Source of the DNA: Candidatus Mediterraneibacter norfolkensis
GTDB taxonomy: Bacteria; Bacillota; Clostridia; Lachnospirales; Lachnospiraceae
Direction: 5' to 3'
DNA: 42,593 nucleotides
Assembly: GCA_019120615.1 (NCBI GenBank)
Contig: DWUT01000229.1
Coordinates: forward strand, 1-42,593
Part shown: in pieces, positions 4,262-33,104 of the stretch
How the letters are laid out: every line of letters starts with the position of its first letter
Position numbering within the stretch: the stretch's first letter is position 1
Program-made: the position numbers and the translations under genes
The notes under the pieces: generated by a model
Told to the model about the DNA's origin: nothing
The model's input: the letters and a program-made list of their open reading frames with translations, nothing else
Databases searched by the model: none

Positions 4262-5351
4262 CTTTGATTCGCGGAGCGCATTTTTCAAAAAACATCCGGT
4301 ATCCATCACAGAAATAATTCTTGTATAGTCCTGTCTTCTCATTCCGTATCCTGTGTCTGTGGCATCCGTTACGGCAGAGCCGGAACCACCGGCACTCCCT
4401 GCATTCTTCTTCGTGCTTTAATGACTCCCCTATAAAATGCTTTGCCGTTTCATTTTCAAAAAAATCCCCAATCCTGCTGCTGTTATAATTTCCCAGACAG
4501 TACTCGTCCATGGCATAAAAATCACATGGGTATGCCCTGCCGTCCGCTTCCGCTACACACTGCACGCTGCAGGTTCCTCTCTGTTCACAGGACTCCGGCG
4601 GAATGCCCGCCAGGATCCCGATATAGTTCTCGAACTGCCGGATATATGGCGCTTTCCCTCTCCTCCAGTCTTTCTCCCACAGGTGGAAAAGTTCTGTGAG
4701 GAACGTTCCGTAAGCTTCCGGCGTCAGGGAATACTCCCGGTTCCCCGGCTCATCTCCCGCCGGATCAAGACATGCGATATACTGCTGGTAATGCCAGCCG
4801 TTTTTCTTATATTCCCTGTATATCTCTTCCGCATGCTCGGCGGCCTGACGCGTCACAACGGTAAGGATATTGTACGCCACACCATACCTGTCAAGCAGAT
4901 CCACCGCCTTCCTGACCCGCGCATACGTCGGTCCTCCCGCCGCATCATGACGGTATCTGTCATGCAGTTCTTCGGTTCCATCCACCGATACACCGATCAG
5001 GAAATCATGTTCCTTAAAGAATCGGCACCACTCCCCGTCGATGGCAAATCCGTTCGTCTGCAGTGTATTTATCACCCGGATCCCTCTCCTGTTAAACCGC
5101 TCTTCGAGCCTGATCACCTCCCGGAAGAAGTCCAGTCCCCGCAGAGTCGGCTCGCCTCCCTGAAACGCAAAGCAGATTTCATCTCCTGCCTGTCTCATTG
5201 CTTTTTTGATCAGATTTTTCACCGTATCCATGGACATCATGCCCCGGACTCCCTCCTCGCGTTTGTCCATCTCGTCACAGTAAAAACAGTAACTGCACCT
5301 CATATTGCACAAACCTGAAGCAGGCTTGATCAGTATCGTATGAAGTATCAT
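4236..5351 (-). CDS. Anaerobic sulfatase-maturating-type radical SAM/SPASM enzyme
   Basis: A 371-residue radical SAM protein. The N-terminal cluster motif Cys15-x3-Cys19-x2-Cys22 (LCNMRCSYC) binds the SAM 4Fe-4S cluster, and FAFQGGEPTLRG is the SAM-binding GGE(P) motif. The C-terminal half is Cys-rich (CEQRGTCSVQC, YPCDFYAMDEYCLGN, EECRECRWFRLCRNGC), as in SPASM domains holding two auxiliary clusters. The CDFYxxDxxxLGN stretch matches anSME enzymes, which oxidise a Cys or Ser of sulfatases to formylglycine. The start at 5351 is favoured by GGAGGTGAGATC just upstream and by the ATGA overlap with brnQ; a longer ORF start at 5468 lies inside brnQ. No sulfatase is visible in this window, so its client is unknown. 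Confidence 0.85.
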   Translation of the reverse strand: MILHTILIKPASGLCNMRCSYCFYCDEMDKREEGVRGMMSMDTVKNLIKKAMRQAGDEICFAFQGGEPTLRGLDFFREVIRLEERFNRRGIRVINTLQTNGFAIDGEWCRFFKEHDFLIGVSVDGTEELHDRYRHDAAGGPTYARVRKAVDLLDRYGVAYNILTVVTRQAAEHAEEIYREYKKNGWHYQQYIACLDPAGDEPGNREYSLTPEAYGTFLTELFHLWEKDWRRGKAPYIRQFENYIGILAGIPPESCEQRGTCSVQCVAEADGRAYPCDFYAMDEYCLGNYNSSRIGDFFENETAKHFIGESLKHEEECRECRWFRLCRNGCHRHRIRNEKTGLYKNYFCDGYRMFFEKCAPRIKEIADYLRK

Positions 5352-17096: not shown

Positions 17097-18587
17097 TTAA
17101 ATTGCATTCATCCTCTCTGCTTTCAGTAAATAACTTATATACTTTTTCTTATATATTTCTGAAAACTCTCTTTGAGGATAAACCGTCTTTTTGATCAGAA
17201 CATTTTTTTTGACAGCTTCTTCATATCCTGAGTATATGCTGCATGCTATTCCGGACATCATAGCCACTCCTCTTACCCCGGTTTCTTCATCTTCCACAAT
17301 TTCTACAGGAAACTGTAATATATCTGCAAACAGCTGGGTCCATACAGACGAACGGCTCACACCGCCTGACAATCTTACTTTATCCGGCAGTTCTCTGTTT
17401 TTCAAAAGCCTCTCTATATGCCATTTATGAGTAAAGACTATGCCCTCATATGCTGCACGCAGCATTTCTTTTCTGCCGTCTGACGGGGACAGTTCCGCCC
17501 ACATTCCTCTGCTTCTGCTATTCAGTGCAGATCCATACAGAAAAGGCATAAAGAGCACACTACTACTGTCAGGACTCTGCTGCTGCACGATCAGATCCGC
17601 CTGCTTATAGATGTCTTCCCCGGACTTTCTCGCTTCTTCAGGATACAGCACCCCAAGCACCCATTCCAGTAACCCTGCCGAAGTGTTGGATCCCTCTTCA
17701 ATGTAATAATAACCCGGAATACAGTAATACGAATTCATCAGAACACTGTGATCACAGACCGGCTTCTTTGAGATATAGGCATTGATTCCACATGTTCCCG
17801 CAATAATAGCCAGTTCCTTTTCGCCTATGATCCCCATACCCAACGCGCTCGCATCTACATCAAACATTCCTGCCATGACTTTTATTCCTGGCCTGCACCC
17901 TAATTCCTGTGCCGCTTCACAAGTCAATTCTCCGCAGATTTCATCAGAATTCTTCAGGGGAGGCAGCTTTTCCATTATTTCTTCTATCCCCAATAATTTG
18001 AATATTTCGGGTTCATACATTCCGGTATTCAGGTTCATATAACTGTTTCCGGACTGATTACAGTAATCGGCGGAAGCCTGTCCCGTCATGCGGTATACGA
18101 GGAAATCCTTCATCGAAAAAACCCAGTGTATGTTATCATAGTTTGTCCTTTCATTCTGTTTTAACCAGGCAAGGATAGAAACCGGATGCGAGGCAAAAAG
18201 TCCTTGATATGTATAATCAAATATTTTGTCTGCAACCCCGGATTCTTTCCATCTCTTTACAATCTCCCACGCTCTTCCGTCAGCCGATGTAATGGCCGGC
18301 CGGACAGGCTTCCCCTCTTTGTCAACTATGTATAATCCTTTTCCCTGTCCCGCAACACCCATGCACTCTATTTTTGATATATCAATTCCGCTTTCTCTGA
18401 TGAGTCTCTTCACACATCTGCAGTTAGCCTTCCATAATTTTTCAGGATCGAGTTCTACACGCCCATCCCGGGTTACTGTTTTTATACTGGGTTCCTTTTC
18501 CAGCTTAATCTGCCTGCCACACTCGTCATACAGGGCCGCTTTTATATAAGACCCTCCATTATCAATCCCTATATAGTATTTACTCAT
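17097..18587 (-). CDS. FGGY-family carbohydrate kinase (L-xylulokinase-like)
   Basis: A 496-residue sugar kinase, the full FGGY length. The N-terminal phosphate motif is IGIDNGGSYIKAALYD. A central ADP-binding region contains IAGTCGINAYISKKP. The C-terminal signature is RLSGGVSRSSVWTQLFADIL. The sequence most resembles LyxK-type kinases that phosphorylate L-xylulose or 3-keto-L-gulonate rather than glycerol kinases. An RBS (AGAGGTAAC) precedes ATG 18587. In this operon it would make the phosphorylated substrate for the decarboxylase and epimerase. Substrate assignment is inferred from neighbours. Confidence 0.86.
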   Translation of the reverse strand: MSKYYIGIDNGGSYIKAALYDECGRQIKLEKEPSIKTVTRDGRVELDPEKLWKANCRCVKRLIRESGIDISKIECMGVAGQGKGLYIVDKEGKPVRPAITSADGRAWEIVKRWKESGVADKIFDYTYQGLFASHPVSILAWLKQNERTNYDNIHWVFSMKDFLVYRMTGQASADYCNQSGNSYMNLNTGMYEPEIFKLLGIEEIMEKLPPLKNSDEICGELTCEAAQELGCRPGIKVMAGMFDVDASALGMGIIGEKELAIIAGTCGINAYISKKPVCDHSVLMNSYYCIPGYYYIEEGSNTSAGLLEWVLGVLYPEEARKSGEDIYKQADLIVQQQSPDSSSVLFMPFLYGSALNSRSRGMWAELSPSDGRKEMLRAAYEGIVFTHKWHIERLLKNRELPDKVRLSGGVSRSSVWTQLFADILQFPVEIVEDEETGVRGVAMMSGIACSIYSGYEEAVKKNVLIKKTVYPQREFSEIYKKKYISYLLKAERMNAI

Positions 18588-18611: not shown

Positions 18612-19466
18612 TCATTCTGGAAGCAAGTCCATCTGTTCAAAAAATTTTTTAAATTCAAGCATTGCCTGCTCAGGCTCATATTCGTATGGAGCAAAGACCT
18701 CACAGCCAAAGTGTCCCTTATATCCCGCTTCATCCAGGACTTCCAGAGCATGCTTTAGATCAAGCACCCCATCCATGGGCAAACGATGCTCATATCTTCC
18801 GGGTGTCAGCTCTGCACAATTATGAAAATGTACATGACAGATTCTGTCTATGCCCAGTTTTTCCACCGCTCCTTCTACCGTTTCATTGATGTAAAACAGA
18901 CAGGACAGATCGATCATGCCTGTTAACGCCCGGGAGCCAACCTCGTCAATCATTTTTATCTGTTTTTCTGTCGATGTAAGTATTGACGAACATCGTGGGG
19001 CTGATTCCAGAAGAAGCTGCACCCCATATGTCTCTGCTATTCCGGCAAGATAAGACATCGTTTCAACTCTGCGCTTCCATCCCTCATCCTGATTTTCGTC
19101 AAAATGTACCCACCCCGGGAAAAACAGACAATATGGAGTTTCAAACTCATTTGCTGCCTGGAGCGCCCTGACATAATGGTCGATCGAACGCGTTTTGGCA
19201 TGGATATTCGTGGAAATCGCATTCACCGGATAGGAACAGTTTTCCGGGCAAAGATTGATCACATGAAGATTATGTTCTTTTAGCATCCGGGCTGTTGTTT
19301 TTATATCCTGAGGCGTAATATCTCCAAGATAAAAGTGGGGATAAGCCGCATAGAATTCGATGTCATGCGCTCCTATTCTTTCGAGAGAATCCAAAGTATA
19401 TTTTAAAGAATATTTATAGTATGGAAAATTTGTATAAGCCACCTGTCTTAAAGATAAATTTTTCAT
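18612..19466 (-). CDS. Sugar-phosphate isomerase/epimerase (xylose-isomerase-like TIM barrel)
   Basis: A 284-residue TIM-barrel protein of the AP-endonuclease-2 superfamily. Metal-ligand regions are visible: LLLESAPRCSS (Glu), GMIDLSCLFY (Asp), CHVHFHNC (His) and a late Glu in FGCEVFAPYEYE. Homologues include UlaE/SgbU (L-xylulose-5-phosphate 3-epimerase) and tagatose-3-epimerase-like enzymes. ATGs lie at 19472 and 19466; the AAAGGAGG RBS abuts the first and is 6 bases from the second, so 19466 is preferred. It lies between the permease and kinase genes of the sugar operon. Confidence 0.84.
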   Translation of the reverse strand: MKNLSLRQVAYTNFPYYKYSLKYTLDSLERIGAHDIEFYAAYPHFYLGDITPQDIKTTARMLKEHNLHVINLCPENCSYPVNAISTNIHAKTRSIDHYVRALQAANEFETPYCLFFPGWVHFDENQDEGWKRRVETMSYLAGIAETYGVQLLLESAPRCSSILTSTEKQIKMIDEVGSRALTGMIDLSCLFYINETVEGAVEKLGIDRICHVHFHNCAELTPGRYEHRLPMDGVLDLKHALEVLDEAGYKGHFGCEVFAPYEYEPEQAMLEFKKFFEQMDLLPE

Positions 19467-19493
19467 TTTCATCCTCCTTTGATTTCTTTACAG

Positions 19494-20306
19494 TCATCCT
19501 TTTACAGAACCTGCCACTCCATTTACAAATGATTTTTGCAAAAGGAGGAATATGATAATTGTAGGCAGAGTACAGCAGGTTACACACAGAAGGATCGCAC
19601 CATAATCCATCCGGTATCCTGTCATCAGATATGCCAGCATTATAGGCATTGTAAACTCTTTATTATCAAGCAGCACAATATTAGGCCACAAATATGCATT
19701 CCATGCATTCATAAATGTAATAGTCAGCGCTGTTGCATAGGTAGGTTTCATTATCGGCATATACATTCTGAAAAAAATCTGTATCTCATTTAGCCCGTCT
19801 ATCCTTGCAGACTGAATAATTTCCCTCGGAAAAGATCTTGAATTCTGCCGAAACAAAAAAATCAGAAACGGTGTGGAAATTGTCGGAAGAATGCAGGCGC
19901 CCATCGTATTCAACATGCCGACCTCCGAAAACATTCTATATAATGGAATTACGATAGAAATCATTGGCACCATCATACCAACAAGAACAATCTGCATAAC
20001 TATGTCCTTTTTACGATCCCTGTATATCTCAAATCCATAGCCTGCCATAGAACATATGATAAGAGAAAGCAGCGAAAGGCAGGATGCGTTTCTGAAAGAA
20101 TTCCAGAGGGCTCCGTAAAGATTATAATCGTTGACAACAGTCGACAGGTTATCAAGCAATGCTGTCCCGGGAATCAGTCTCCCACTCAGGATATCAACGG
20201 TAGTATTCGTAGCCGAAACCAGCATCCACATAATTGGGAACAGTGAAAAAAAGCACAGTATAATTAAAAAAATATATATGAACCCATGCTTTATCCGTCT
20301 ACTCAT
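19494..20306 (-). CDS. Carbohydrate ABC transporter permease, MalG/AraQ type
   Basis: A 270-residue inner-membrane permease of the CUT1 class with six hydrophobic segments. The cytoplasmic EAA-type loop reads SARIDGLNEIQIFFRMYMP, which contacts the shared ATPase. The start overlaps the preceding permease by 8 bases, typical of MalF/MalG pairs. No ATPase gene is present; CUT1 systems commonly share one MsmK-like ATPase encoded elsewhere. Its binding-protein partner is interrupted by an intron, so the transporter may be inactive here. Confidence 0.92.
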   Translation of the reverse strand: MSRRIKHGFIYIFLIILCFFSLFPIMWMLVSATNTTVDILSGRLIPGTALLDNLSTVVNDYNLYGALWNSFRNASCLSLLSLIICSMAGYGFEIYRDRKKDIVMQIVLVGMMVPMISIVIPLYRMFSEVGMLNTMGACILPTISTPFLIFLFRQNSRSFPREIIQSARIDGLNEIQIFFRMYMPIMKPTYATALTITFMNAWNAYLWPNIVLLDNKEFTMPIMLAYLMTGYRMDYGAILLCVTCCTLPTIIIFLLLQKSFVNGVAGSVKG

Positions 20307-21422: not shown

Positions 21423-22113
21423 TCATTCGCTCATTTCAAATTCGAGATTTTCCTGTGCCATCTGCATTTCCGTATCAATGTCTGATCCGTTCACCACATT
21501 GATAACTTCCGTAATAAGAGCATCCTGAGCGCTCATGTAATAAGGACTGGAATTAAGAGCCGGCCCTCCGTCAACACAGGCTGCGACATCCGCAAAAAAT
21601 GTAGGACCATAAAACTCACTGTCTACATTCTCATAATATCCGCTTTCAAGCACCGGCTTATATGTTGTTACATATCCTGCAAACTCCGTGAGATACTCCC
21701 AATATTCCTGCGCGCCTTCCCCACAGAGTACATACGAAAGGAAATCAACAATCTCATCCGCATTTTCTCCGGCATTCTTAGTTACCACCCAGCTGGCTCC
21801 GCCGGAATTTGTCATATGTGTTGCCCCATCTATGTCCATTGCAGGTATGTCCGTTACCGCCCACACTCCCTTCTGGTCAGGAGCGTTGGAGATATTTCCA
21901 TTAACCCACATACCGTTGACTACTCCGGCAACTGTCCCCTCATTCAAACACGAATTATACTCATCCCATGATGCCGCAATATACATCGTATTACTGTCCA
22001 CAAGTTCTTTTGTAGTCTCCAGAACTGCCGCCATTATCTCATTGTCAAACGATGGATTCCCCTCTTCATCAAAAAACTGCCCTCCACTCGACGTATAAAT
22101 CTGTTTTGGGATA
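21423..22113 (-). pseudogene. Sugar ABC solute-binding protein, C-terminal half (split by intron)
   Basis: The downstream exon of a CUT1 binding-protein gene whose upstream part is at 24848-25467. Open reading continues without a stop up to the intron edge at 22113, and family features such as ADEIVDFLSYVLCGEGAQEYW (domain 1/2 hinge region, shortened here to ADEIVDFLSYV) are present. Joined to the other part it gives 436 residues, the normal length. The intron lies in antisense orientation and therefore cannot be spliced from the message of this gene, so this fragment is presumably not translated as part of a functional protein. Confidence 0.88.
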
Positions 22114-22814
22114 GTGCGACTTGTTCGCAGGTGGTAAAAAGCCTGCGCACAGGCACGATTATTTCATAATCAGTCTGTGAACTGATAGTTCGATAGGTGG
22201 AATGAAGGGGTAACGCCCTGAAACGCCTAGCCTTGACAGACTAGCGTCGGTTGTAAAGACCGGGGTTAGAAGCTCTGTGACAAAGGTCGAGAGCAGCCGC
22301 AGGAGTTGCCAAAAACTTCCGAAAGCGCCCCAGAGGTGGGGTGTGCTGCCTATAGACCGAGGCTCTATAAAATATCTATGGTTAGAATGTTTGCTTTGGC
22401 GGGCAAACTGACGAATCTGCGAAGGTACGGTTCTAAAAGAAGACCATGTAGAAATGCATGGGTACGTTAAAGCGTAGCCAGTGTGGTTTAGTAGAAATTT
22501 TCCCTACGAACGACCATGATATGTTACAGGCATATGCAAGCTGGCAGGACTATAGCAGAGACCTAAGGGTATACATGCAGAGATAGAACTATTGGAACAA
22601 GGAAAGGTATCAGGTCTCCATATGGAGATTTTCTGGCGAAGAACTATAAGCAGATTAACTGGTGCCGAAAGGTGGAGATCGAACCGCAGATCGCTTCTGT
22701 AACGGGAGCGGGAGGAATGGTCTCTAGTCGGTTGTGAATATCAGATATTATTCAGTCCAACATAAGGATTCGAGTAAGACCAAAAGGGTCACTTTCTATA
22801 GGAGGTGATGCCTT
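22114..22814 (+). ncRNA. Group II intron ribozyme, 5' domains I-IV
   Basis: 701 bases without a gene, forming the structured 5' part of the intron RNA. It begins with GTGCGAC and contains many short self-complementary runs, such as GCCTGCGCACAGGC near its start. It ends with the RBS TAGGAGGTGATG ahead of the maturase ATG at 22815. Individual domain borders were not resolved by eye. Confidence 0.8.
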
Positions 22815-24722
22815 ATGCCAAAGAAAAACAAAAGCCTATGTGTAGATGAACTACGACACGCTGAATACTACGGCATGCAGGACACATTTGATGAATTATA
22901 TCAAAAAAGCATGAACGGCGAAAAATTTGAAGATCTTATGGATCTGATACTAAGCCGGGATAATATTCTGCTGGCGTACAGAAATATGAAAGCGAACAAA
23001 GGAAGCTATACAGCAGGAACAGACAACAGAAACATTACCGAAATCGGGCAAATGGCGCCCGATATGGTGGTGGAGAAAGTGAGGTTTATTGTCACAGGAA
23101 GTCAGCATGGTTACAGACCAAAACCCGTAAGGCGGAAGGATATCCCTAAGCCAAACGGAAAACTTCGCCCGTTAGGTATTCCATGTATTTGGGATCGGCT
23201 GATACAGCAATGTATCAAGCAGGTTTTAGAGCCCATATGTGAAGCGAAGTTCTATAATAACAGCTACGGATTTCGACCGAACCGATCAGTGGAACACGCA
23301 ATCTCAAAGACTTATACAATGCTTCAGAGAATGAATCTGCACTATATAATTGAGTTTGATATAAAGGGATTCTTTGATAATGTGAACCACAGTAAACTGA
23401 TGAAGCAAATCTGGACGCTGGGAATACAAGATAAACAGTTACTGTTCGTTATAAAGCGTATTCTGAAAGCACCCATAAGAATGCAGGACGGCTCTACAGT
23501 TATCCCGAACAAGGGAACGCCTCAAGGCGGAATCATTTCACCTTTGCTGGCAAATATAGTTCTGAACGAGCTGGACTGGTGGGTGGCGAGCCAATGGGAA
23601 GAAAATCCCCTGGCATTACAGGGAGCGAAATACAGAGTTATCAGAACATCAGAGATTCTGGACAAAAGCAAAGGTTACATTGCAATGAGAAGAACGAATC
23701 TCAAAGAAATGCACATCATAAGATACGCTGATGATTTTAGAATCTTCTGCAAAACAAAGGAAGACGCATTGAAAACAAAAGTAGCTGTGACGAAATGGAT
23801 TGAGGAAAGGCTGAAACTCGAAGTATCTCCGGAGAAAACGAGAATTGTAAACACCCGAAAGCGGTGGTCGGAGTTTCTGGGCTTCAAGATCAAAGTTATT
23901 CCAAAACATCACAAGTATATAGTAAAATCGGCAATCTGTGACAAAAAGGCAAAAATTGAAGAAGAAAAGTTAGTGGAGCAGGCGAAAAATATAGCCCGTC
24001 CAAGAGATCAAATGACCTGTCTCAATGAGATACGGCTCTACAACTCTATGGTACTGGGAATTCAGAATTATTATCAGCTTGCAACCTGTATCAGTCTTGA
24101 TTGCAGGGTATTCCACAGAAGAGTGATGACGGTACTGACGAATCGGCTGAACACCGAAAAAGGCTGTATGTTAAAACGTGAGGGCGGAACGATCACCCAA
24201 AGCGAAAAAGAACGGTTTGGAAAATCTAAAATGATCCGCTACGTTGCGGGAATTGATCAGATGATCTATCCCATAGCATACATAAAATATAAGGTGGCAA
24301 TGCCGAAAAGAGTCAAGGTATGCAGTTATACATCAGAAGGCAGGGAACTGATTCATACGAGCTTAAGTCTGAACAAGACAGTGATGTATGAATTGAAAGA
24401 CGACAGATCGAAGAACCACAGCATAGAACTTCTTGACAGCAGAATATCATTATTTTCTGCACAGAAGGGGAAATGTGCGATATGTGGAGAAGAATTCGTT
24501 TCTGCCAGAGATGTAGTCTGCTGGCTCAAAAAGCCAAAAGATCAAGGTGGTACTGAGCGATATAAAAATATGGCCCTTATTCATCGGAAATATCTCCCGT
24601 TATTACAGAACACATTCAATGATGATTTAAAAGCCTTAGCAAAAACACTTAAAGTAACTGCTAAAATGGCTTCCAAGATAAACAGTCTGCGAGAGCAGGC
24701 TGGCCTGACCAAGATAGGATAA
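22815..24722 (+). CDS. ltrA: Group II intron reverse transcriptase/maturase (LtrA-like)
   Basis: A 635-residue intron-encoded protein. Reverse transcriptase blocks are evident: KLRPLGIPCIWDRLIQQ, YGFRPNRSVEHAI, IEFDIKGFFDNV, GTPQGGIISPLLANI and the catalytic YADD at residues 304-307. A maturase (X) domain follows (about 390-500). The C-terminus has a CxxC pair (Cys554, Cys557 in CAICGEEF) and a GGTERYKNMALIHRK segment like the end of an HNH endonuclease. The usual His-His pair between them is replaced by VCWLKKPK. It promotes splicing and retrohoming of its own intron. An RBS (AGGAGGTG) lies 8 bases before the ATG. Confidence 0.96.
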   Translation: MPKKNKSLCVDELRHAEYYGMQDTFDELYQKSMNGEKFEDLMDLILSRDNILLAYRNMKANKGSYTAGTDNRNITEIGQMAPDMVVEKVRFIVTGSQHGYRPKPVRRKDIPKPNGKLRPLGIPCIWDRLIQQCIKQVLEPICEAKFYNNSYGFRPNRSVEHAISKTYTMLQRMNLHYIIEFDIKGFFDNVNHSKLMKQIWTLGIQDKQLLFVIKRILKAPIRMQDGSTVIPNKGTPQGGIISPLLANIVLNELDWWVASQWEENPLALQGAKYRVIRTSEILDKSKGYIAMRRTNLKEMHIIRYADDFRIFCKTKEDALKTKVAVTKWIEERLKLEVSPEKTRIVNTRKRWSEFLGFKIKVIPKHHKYIVKSAICDKKAKIEEEKLVEQAKNIARPRDQMTCLNEIRLYNSMVLGIQNYYQLATCISLDCRVFHRRVMTVLTNRLNTEKGCMLKREGGTITQSEKERFGKSKMIRYVAGIDQMIYPIAYIKYKVAMPKRVKVCSYTSEGRELIHTSLSLNKTVMYELKDDRSKNHSIELLDSRISLFSAQKGKCAICGEEFVSARDVVCWLKKPKDQGGTERYKNMALIHRKYLPLLQNTFNDDLKALAKTLKVTAKMASKINSLREQAGLTKIG

Positions 24723-24770
24723 TGTTATATTTGGTGACTGAATAAATATCTGATGAAAACAATCGATGGG

Positions 24771-24804
24771 GCGCCGGATGCGGTGAAAGTCGCATGTCCG
24801 GTGC
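24771..24804 (+). ncRNA. Group II intron domain V catalytic hairpin
   Basis: A 34-nt hairpin beginning GCGCCGGATGCGG, with a GTGAAAGT tip region and ending GTCCGGTGC. Length, the GAAA tip and the two-part stem with a small bulge match domain V. The catalytic triad position reads CGC rather than the AGC seen in many bacterial introns. Domain VI and the 3' splice site follow within 43 bases. Confidence 0.88.
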
Positions 24805-24847
24805 TAATCGGGGGAAAAGCTGGAGATTGTATCAAAGGCTTACCTAT

Positions 24848-25467
24848 CGAAACAAGCAGGAAGTAGCATCGTCAAGGAGAAGATAATGCCCTGTTTTTTC
24901 ATAGACATCTGCCCCTATTTCGATCACCCTGTCCCATGTAACATTAGACAGATCGTCAATCGTATACCCTGCCTCTTCCAGATAATCTGTTCTATACATC
25001 GCTATCGAGGCTCCGCTGTCCATTGGCAGCGCATAATATCTATCATCAATGGTATAAAGTGATCTTTTGGATTCCACCAAATCCTGCCATGGAATATCAT
25101 AGTCCGTCAAATCTATCAGCATATCCGGATATGAATTGACAAACTGAGAGATAGCCGTATCTTCCATAAGCGTAAAATCAGGTAAGGAGTCATAATCTCC
25201 TGTTTCACCCATTGTCACCAGCTTATTTCTGGAGTCTTCATTCACAACTGTTACCACATCCAACTGAATATTGGCTCCTGTTGCCTCATTATACATATCA
25301 GCAGCCTCTTGTATGGCCTCTACGTTTGCATCCCATGCCCATACAGTATAGGTGTTCCCCTGCGGCTCATCTGATGTTTCCTCTTGTTTTTCGCTGCCCG
25401 AAGAGCATCCTGCCAGGCAAAGCACCATAGTTCCCGCCATTAATAATCCAACTAATCTTTTTTTCAT
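24848..25467 (-). pseudogene. Sugar ABC solute-binding lipoprotein, N-terminal half (split by intron)
   Basis: The upstream exon of a CUT1 binding protein. It begins with a lipoprotein signal peptide: basic start MKKRL, a hydrophobic core and the lipobox LAGC with Cys21. Then comes a Ser-rich linker and the first lobe (YTVWAWDANVEAIQEAADMY). Reading enters the intron at 24847 and meets a TAG at once. RBS TAAGGAGGTAA, a consensus promoter and an operator are intact upstream, so transcription should still occur but give a truncated ~207-residue product. The sugar bound is unknown; the operon suggests a pentulose- or ascorbate-related compound. Confidence 0.9.
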
Positions 25468-25726: not shown

Positions 25727-26764
25727 ATGAACATAAGAGATATTGCTGAGTTAGCCGGAGTGTCAAAATCTACTGTCTCAAGAGTGATCAATAATTCTGA
25801 CAGTGTAGATTCTAAAACCCGAGAATTGGTTTTAAAAGTGATTCGGGAAAACAATTTTCTTCCTTCAGCAATGGCCAGAGGACTGTCAACGCAGGATACG
25901 AACATTATCGGAGTCGTTCTTCCCGAAGTCGACAACTCTTTTTTTGGACAGATCATTCAGGGAATAAATGATGCGTTGATCGACAGTCCTTATACAATGC
26001 TCTTATGCTGTACGGAAAATATCCCGGAACGTGAAATAAAAGCATTAAAAGCATTGCGGCAGCAGCGTGTCCGGGGAGTTTTGATCACCTCTTCTCACGA
26101 CTTCTGTGAAGCGTCAACTGCCGCAGAAATTACAAATGCTCTGTCCAGCATAGACGCTCCGGTAGTACTGATCGACCGTGCTTTAAAAAACACTCCCTGG
26201 GACGGAGTGTATTCTGATAATGTTAACGGCGCATATTCGGCAACAGAGGCTCTGGCTAAAAGAGGTTTTAAAAAAATAAGCGCTTTTGTCAGCGATATGC
26301 AGCTCCCTATCGGGAAAGAACGGTTTGAAGGTTTCAGACTGGCCATGGAAAAAAGCGGGATTCCTCTTGACCCCTCTCAGCTATATTTGCAGGAGTTTCC
26401 TGCCTCCATGTCTGAAGTATATTCTTTTACCTGTGAGCTGATAGAAAATCAAAAACTTCCTGATGCAATTTTTCTCAGCAACGCCATTATTGCAAATGGA
26501 TTTTATAAAGCACTTCTTGAAAAAGGAATTATGCCGGGACAAGCCATCCACTGCGTCGGTTTTAATTATTGCGAAGCTTTGGATATCCTGCACGTCCCCT
26601 ATAGTTATCTGGAGCGAAATTCCATGCTGTTCGGACAAACGGCTACTGAGATACTGCTGCAGCTGTTCAAAACCGCTTCGCCTGTGCGCAAAGAATATAT
26701 TATCCCTGCGATATTACACCTGGATGAAACTCTGCTCTCTATCACAAAACATCCACGATCCTAG
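25727..26764 (+). CDS. LacI-family transcriptional regulator
   Basis: A 345-residue repressor. The N-terminal helix-turn-helix is classic (IRDIAELAGVSKSTVSRVIN) with the hinge helix around SAMARGLS. A periplasmic-binding-protein-like effector domain follows (NIIGVVLPEVDNSFFGQIIQG, then VVLIDRALKNTPWDGVYSDN). RBS AAGGAG lies 11 bases before the ATG. It is divergent from the sugar operon; the two matching 14-bp sites in the shared region are its probable operators. The effector is presumably an intermediate or substrate of the sugar route. Confidence 0.93.
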   Translation: MNIRDIAELAGVSKSTVSRVINNSDSVDSKTRELVLKVIRENNFLPSAMARGLSTQDTNIIGVVLPEVDNSFFGQIIQGINDALIDSPYTMLLCCTENIPEREIKALKALRQQRVRGVLITSSHDFCEASTAAEITNALSSIDAPVVLIDRALKNTPWDGVYSDNVNGAYSATEALAKRGFKKISAFVSDMQLPIGKERFEGFRLAMEKSGIPLDPSQLYLQEFPASMSEVYSFTCELIENQKLPDAIFLSNAIIANGFYKALLEKGIMPGQAIHCVGFNYCEALDILHVPYSYLERNSMLFGQTATEILLQLFKTASPVRKEYIIPAILHLDETLLSITKHPRS

Positions 26765-32921: not shown

Positions 32922-32984
32922 AATAAAACCCTCCTTATCTTCAAGACTGAAAACAAAAAGGGCTCAAAACACTGCACATTGAGA

Positions 32985-33072
32985 ACGCATCCCTACGCTG
33001 GCATTACCCAGATCAGGTTGTGGGTCGAAGTTTACAACTTCCTCTCAGCCTGTAATACAAGCTCCCCTTGTC
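32985..33072 (-). ncRNA. TPP (THI-box) riboswitch
   Basis: On the minus strand the leader holds GGGGAGC near its 5' end, CTGAGAGG, then ACCC, and the core ACCTGATCTGGGTAATGCC followed by AGCGTAGGGA. These are the conserved pieces of the thiamine-pyrophosphate aptamer in the right order and spacing. About 60 bases separate it from the thiT ATG, leaving room for an expression platform that masks the RBS or ends transcription when TPP is bound. Confidence 0.96.
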
Positions 33073-33104
33073 ATCAATCTTATTCAATTTTTATGTCCTT
33101 TAGA

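Follow-up and report, generated by a model that had tools for sequence, protein, structure and literature searches.

An antisense group II intron in a sugar-binding protein gene of Candidatus Mediterraneibacter norfolkensis, with relatives that reside in a conjugative coupling-protein gene

We analyzed a stretch of 42,593 nucleotides from Candidatus Mediterraneibacter norfolkensis (contig DWUT01000229.1, hereafter the window), in which a group II intron of 2740 bp lies at positions 22114 to 24853 on the plus strand. The intron interrupts a gene on the minus strand, which encodes the solute-binding protein of a sugar ATP-binding cassette (ABC) transporter. We observed directly where the intron has inserted and that it runs antisense to its host gene, and also found a syntenic orthologue that is intact and lacks it, as well as the home site of the intron's relatives. 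We consider it highly probable that an IIB-like intron associated with conjugation entered this chromosomal gene by off-target (ectopic) retrotransposition, in antisense, and broke it. The host assembly (3.58 Mb in 317 contigs, 94% complete) contains a single copy of the intron.

The intron was recognized by its RNA domains and by its encoded protein. Domain I RNA is present at 22177-22371 (plus strand; RF02004, 155.1 bits against 34.5), and domain V/VI RNA is present at 24769-24853 (plus strand; RF00029, model positions 1-77 of 77, 57.5 bits against 40). Between them, positions 22815 to 24722 of the plus strand encode an intact reverse transcriptase/maturase of 635 amino acids, which matches PF00078 and TIGR04416 (342 bits, cut-off 300). 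The PF01348 maturase model had no match in the host genome; the same search matched none of 14 controls either. Domains V and VI (24770-24853, plus strand) fold with z = -3.37. An adenosine at 24842 is bulged, and we take it to be the likely branch point; the domain VI helix closes at 24850 and is followed by AAC. The RNA domains and the intact reverse transcriptase/maturase identify a mobile group II intron, for which splicing and mobility are predicted. From its anatomy, the class appears to be IIB-like. The two parts of the host gene were assigned by PF13416, which is matched in order across both: the N-terminal half (24854-25467, minus strand) matches profile positions 1-134 and the C-terminal half (21423-22113, minus strand) matches positions 144-264. 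With PF13416 matched in both halves and two permease genes beside it, the protein was assigned to a sugar ABC transporter. Thus the Rfam, PF00078/TIGR04416 and PF13416 matches bear out the opposite orientations of intron and host gene that had been described in an initial annotation of the window.

The 3′ boundary had to be corrected. The initial annotation had ended the intron at 24847 and had rejoined the host gene into a frame of 436 residues. This frame is indeed open and without a stop codon. However, it contains two residues that are absent from 14 of 14 homologues (distinct sequences from the genus, identical copies removed, E < 1e-18 for the N-terminal half). When the end is set to 24853, all 14 align without a gap at the join. 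Similarly, the flanks align to the orthologue of another genus of the same family (genome G185) over 593 nt without a gap, whereas with the end at 24847 the letters CGAAAC stand opposite a 6-nt gap. The relatives of the intron give the same answer. At their home site, an exon that starts with ARGC follows six bases (CGAAAC, TGTCAT, CACTAT or CAGAAC) in all 14 loci for which the 3′ junction was printed (L002, L004-L008, L041, L096-L099, L101, L102 and L104). In addition, at locus L003 two copies stand in tandem: one ends with CCTATTGTCAT, and the GTACG of the next copy follows directly after TTGTCAT. The base of the domain VI fold at 24850 and the end of the RF00029 match at 24853 agree with the corrected boundary. 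At the 5′ end the intron begins with GTGCG, and both termini match those of relatives at the home site. Therefore, the end at 24847 was rejected: the intron extends to 24853, with CGAAAC as its final 6 bp. Because of this, the uninterrupted frame has 434 residues, and joining the flanks leaves it open throughout. A surplus of residues at this point had been named in advance as a sign against the insertion. It was found, and it counts against the former boundary but not against the insertion.

The state of the gene without an intron is represented by G185. In this genome, the genes for a LacI-type regulator, the binding protein, two permeases, an epimerase-like protein and a kinase stand in identical order, and the binding-protein gene is uninterrupted. 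The identities to the window are 70% and 77% for the two halves of the binding protein, 80-81% for the permeases, 81% for the epimerase-like protein, 61% for the kinase and 58% for the LacI-type regulator. No intron match was found in the G185 genome; this search had no positive control, but the same kind of search recovers the window copy. In 57 other genomes of the genus, no close orthologue of the binding protein was found, and the best matches are at most 43% identical for each half. These results bear on the idea that unrelated stretches were joined by the assembler through a repeated intron. The assembly is fragmented and related introns do occur in tandem (L003). However, the flanks are parts of one gene, their join is in frame and free of gaps against the orthologue, and the assembly contains only one intron copy. 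We regard such an artefact as hardly credible.

The origin of the intron was sought among its relatives. We collected 39 loci in genome contigs; a match of any kind was present in 9 of 61 genomes of relatives and in 52 of 397 genomes of the family, with the host genome included in both counts. A common 5′ exon, TTYTGG(GTN/ACG)A, precedes the intron at 17 loci (L002, L003, L005-L008, L041, L096-L103, L109 and L114), which were assigned by the sequence of the site. At six loci where the reading frames were followed, the site encodes, in sense, (E/D)DFWVK before the intron and AE(K/T)L after it. The family of the home gene was searched for both exons of L002 and L008 and for the 3′ exon of L098; the other loci were placed by sequence. 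The 5′ exon of L008 matches the VirD4-like coupling protein NF045973 over positions 1-129 (160 bits; as a fragment it does not reach the cut-off of 250), and its 3′ exon matches positions 132-442 (394 bits, cut-off 250). Pieces of L008 and L002 match PF02534 and PF12696. A stretch of 75 residues in the 3′ exon of L098 also matches NF045973, under the cut-off. Judged by these profile matches, the home of the relatives is a VirD4/TraG-type (CD1115-type) coupling-protein gene, entered in sense at an EDFW(V/T)K site, where tested (L002 and L008). The window copy does not belong to this group, being located in antisense within a sugar-binding protein gene. A rough test for open frames, applied to 30 distinct 5′ flanks including that of the window, gave 199 open codons in antisense against 47 in sense for the window. 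Most home-site loci favoured the sense orientation, several rows were not decisive, and L100 was opposite (93 sense, 199 antisense).

Not all relatives use this site. At L108 (position 1501), the 5′ exon matches NF045973 up to position 93 (111 bits, a fragment) and PF02534 (31.6 bits against 20.1). Because this exon ends at 93 and not at 129, the coupling-protein gene seems to have a second site that is used by related introns. By eye, the flanks of L106 and L034 resemble that of L108. The remaining relatives have different 5′ exons. The tandem copies at L003 (291-3066), which belong to a closely related intron, occupy the home site. At L098 (4246-5736), the 3′ exon of the coupling-protein gene passes after about 75 codons into the frame of a large serine recombinase, as if a second element were present in the gene. 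At L096, the tail of a second group II intron (4357-4439, minus strand) precedes the 5′ end of the home-site intron by about 0.1 kb, and a similar tail lies about 0.2 kb away at L097.

A group II intron recognizes its target by pairing of exon-binding sites (EBS) in its RNA with intron-binding sites (IBS) in the exons; the EBS positions given here are our candidates. The candidate EBS2 loop, UAGAAAUG, lies at 22449-22456 (plus strand) within a predicted hairpin and is, by inspection, complementary to the IBS2 of the home site. The letters AGAAATG at this place are conserved in an alignment of 10 introns. The candidate EBS1, UUUCCC, was placed at 22499-22504 (plus strand), on the 3′ side of the loop of a GUAG/CUAC hairpin, from the alignment, the pairing table and the fold. 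In the 5′ exon, the target comprises IBS2 (TGTTTT) and IBS1 (GGGATA) at 22102-22113 on the plus strand, antisense to the binding-protein gene. In the 3′ exon, it comprises AAGCAG at 24854-24859 (plus strand), where the A at +1 is the IBS3 candidate. On the plus strand, the empty site reads TTTTGGGATA up to the insertion point and AAGCAGG after it, and the main home site reads GAYTTYTGGGTNA and then ARGCNGA. Read in antisense, the sugar gene offers a partial look-alike of the home site (TTTTGGG..A followed by AAGC). Five of six EBS1-IBS1 pairs can form at the occupied site, and five or six of six can form in 11 home-site rows, each taken with its own EBS1. A matrix of positions -12 to +6, derived from the home sites (5′ exons of 13, 3′ exons of 10) with the occupied site left out, ranks the occupied site 6th of 79,670 window positions.

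Several observations weigh against an off-target event guided by this likeness. First, the rank depends on the stretch that is scored: it is 22 for -12 to +12, 91 for -16 to +15, 347 for -12 to -1, 408 for +1 to +12 and 1962 for IBS1 alone. Second, the EBS of the window intron form 19 of 26 possible pairs at the occupied site against 21-24 at all 13 home sites (+1 taken as A). Third, the core TTYTGGGNNAARGC occurs at three further places in the genome, all unoccupied, and one of these has the same 14 letters as the empty site. Because a reversed control pattern also has two matches, the core motif occurs at about the level of chance. Fourth, the closest full-length introns are only 73-77% identical, and no donor copy is known. 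Fifth, the absence of a coupling protein, described below, rests on an assembly that is 94% complete and in 317 contigs. When EBS pairing alone was scored, 137 of 79,680 positions, the occupied site among them, reached the score of the occupied site. Many equally good sites would therefore exist, and the intron seems to have gone off-target to a look-alike, not to the best site. Three home-like patterns elsewhere in the genome were considered as empty coupling-protein sites and were rejected, because by eye none resembles a coupling protein: that on contig C119 is in an aldolase-like frame, that on C270 is in an ABC-ATPase frame and that on C48 has no clear identity.

An alternative is that the intron belongs to a retargeted lineage, whose EBS1 evolved to UUUCCC to suit the sugar-gene site or a similar one. 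The EBS1 of the window intron has U opposite the A at -3 of the sugar-gene site; among the 10 home-site rows in which -3 is T, nine have G or A at that EBS1 position. However, L103 sits at the coupling-protein home site with the same EBS1, UUUCCC, and an IBS1 of GGGTAA, and also forms five of six pairs. Moreover, the pairing counts given above show that the window EBS fit the 13 home sites better than the sugar-gene site. We therefore judge retargeting to be improbable, and prefer an off-target insertion.

We looked for the donor. A near-identical copy in plasmids, phages and viral contigs was not found. Among plasmids, the best relatives align to 70% of the query at 67.6% identity, and no plasmid or phage record covers 80%; the viral contigs contain two loci, with 43% and 39% protein identity. 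The relative on an Enterococcus faecium plasmid (NC_017961; 67.6% identical over 70% of the window intron), which carries ltrA, adjoins genes annotated as MobT relaxase, conjugal transfer protein and ArdA, and is annotated between mobT and a small open reading frame (ORF). The host genome had no match to PF02534 or NF045973; controls matched in 5 of 14 cases for the first and in 6 of 14 for the second, one of these six above the cut-off. Because the genome contains one intron copy and no detected coupling-protein gene, the donor element is absent or unassembled.

From these observations, we propose the following course of events. An IIB-like intron, whose kin home in sense to a VirD4/TraG-type coupling-protein gene, would have arrived on a conjugative element that has since been lost or is missing from the assembly. 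The target would have been a chance look-alike of the home site, read in antisense to the binding-protein gene. Reverse splicing, guided by EBS1, EBS2 and EBS3 pairing, would then have placed the intron off-target in the chromosome. No full-length binding protein would be made, and the uptake system would be without its receptor.

The effect on the host gene follows from the orientation. The frame of the N-terminal half enters the intron by a few codons and then stops (ORF 24844-25467). The host message is read from the minus strand and contains the intron in reverse-complemented form, which is unable to act as a ribozyme. Antisense group II insertions are not removable by splicing (PMC3898094). 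Thus the antisense disruption claimed by the initial annotation is supported, and its statement that the host message cannot be repaired agrees with established knowledge. The binding protein, and hence uptake through this operon, is probably lost. Other binding proteins are encoded in the genome (40-43% identity in the N-terminal half), and therefore a partial replacement is possible. We also considered whether the split gene still functions, as two half-proteins or by internal initiation. Both halves are free of stop codons, their ratios of nonsynonymous to synonymous differences (pN/pS) are near those of the neighbouring genes, and an ORF of 203 amino acids starts at an internal ATG in the C-terminal half (22034, minus strand). 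However, by inspection the C-terminal half has no signal peptide or lipobox, and a message covering both halves would have to traverse the reverse-complemented intron, 2.7 kb long. Since neutral decay takes time, the intact state of the halves does not prove that they function. Retained function thus seems very unlikely to us, and we hold to the loss of the binding protein.

The binding-protein gene is the first gene of a presumed sugar-uptake operon on the minus strand. It is followed by two sugar ABC permease genes matching PF00528 (20299-21189, 81% identical and syntenic in G185; 19494-20306, 80% identical in G185), a gene for a xylose-isomerase-like (epimerase-like) TIM-barrel protein (18612-19472, PF01261) and an FGGY carbohydrate kinase gene (17097-18587, PF00370/PF02782). 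The best NCBIfam match of the TIM-barrel protein is NF007360, fructoselysine 3-epimerase, with 103 bits; the cut-off of 305 was not reached. From the epimerase-like gene, one might guess that the sugar taken up is an Amadori compound or a keto-sugar. The gene for the LacI-type regulator (25727-26764, plus strand, PF00356/PF00532) is divergent and lies upstream of the binding-protein gene; like the TIM-barrel and kinase genes, it is syntenic in G185. The initial annotation had described the promoter and operator as intact. The former rests on a single 11/12 match, and a scan gave eight sites against a shuffle mean of 10.3; the latter was not borne out. It is possible that the insertion is polar on the permease genes. 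Between 21200 and 25800, seven terminator-like hairpins were found against 3.4 expected (sd 2.0); this is a weak excess, and four of them lie on the minus strand inside the intron. At 22141-22154 (minus strand), a terminator-like element, consisting of a GC hairpin and then TTTTT, arises from the start of domain I and could shorten the operon message. Elsewhere in the window, a thiamine pyrophosphate riboswitch is located at 32973-33078 (minus strand; 63.7 bits, gathering threshold 54.3).

The initial annotation had considered the insertion to be recent. Against G185, pN/pS is 0.22 for the N-terminal half and 0.18 for the C-terminal half. The values for the neighbouring genes are 0.17 and 0.17 for the permeases, 0.13 for the epimerase-like protein, 0.33 for the kinase and 0.31 for the LacI-type regulator. 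The absence of stop codons and the closeness of both halves to the permeases would fit a recent event. However, because the synonymous divergence (dS) is saturated or nearly so (pS 0.71-0.90), substitutions give no date, and dating by this route was abandoned. A recent insertion is compatible with the data.

Events of this class are already known, since both the antisense effect and ectopic retrotransposition have been published. The closest parallel is Ll.LtrB of Lactococcus lactis, an intron of a conjugation gene that moves to degenerate homing sites in the chromosome (PMC4256276). The conjugative relaxase raises both the frequency and the diversity of its retrotransposition (PMC4256276). 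However, Ll.LtrB is a group IIA intron (PMC3898094) and resides in a relaxase gene, whereas the relatives of the window intron home to a coupling-protein gene, and the natural event described here is known from sequence alone. Introns of classes IIA and IIB are described as rarely integrating at ectopic sites (PMC3898094). Antisense targetron insertions likewise give a non-conditional knockout, with a transcript that holds the complement of the intron (PMC3898094), but they are engineered. The group IIB introns of Thermosynechococcus elongatus can be sorted by EBS sequence and target, and some are located at poorly matched sites (PMC2882425). They have proliferated to many copies (PMC2882425), in contrast to the single copy of the window intron. 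Among the literature matches listed, the titles and abstract starts contain no description of this coupling-protein home site.

Because EBS1 and EBS2 pair better with the home sites than with the present site, re-homing is conceivable. The chromosomal copy might be a silent reservoir, able to return to a coupling-protein gene when a conjugative element that carries one enters the host. We think this unlikely. If it is true, an antisense position in a sugar gene that the host can spare would carry the intron through times when no such element is present. The locus itself offers a clean natural example of a conjugation-associated group II intron at a partly matched chromosomal target, where it has cost the host a working gene; the intact syntenic orthologue and the well defined home site serve for comparison. 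The locus also provides a named home site (the EDFW(V/T)K site of the coupling protein) and a named off-target site, with which the rules of target recognition may be tested.

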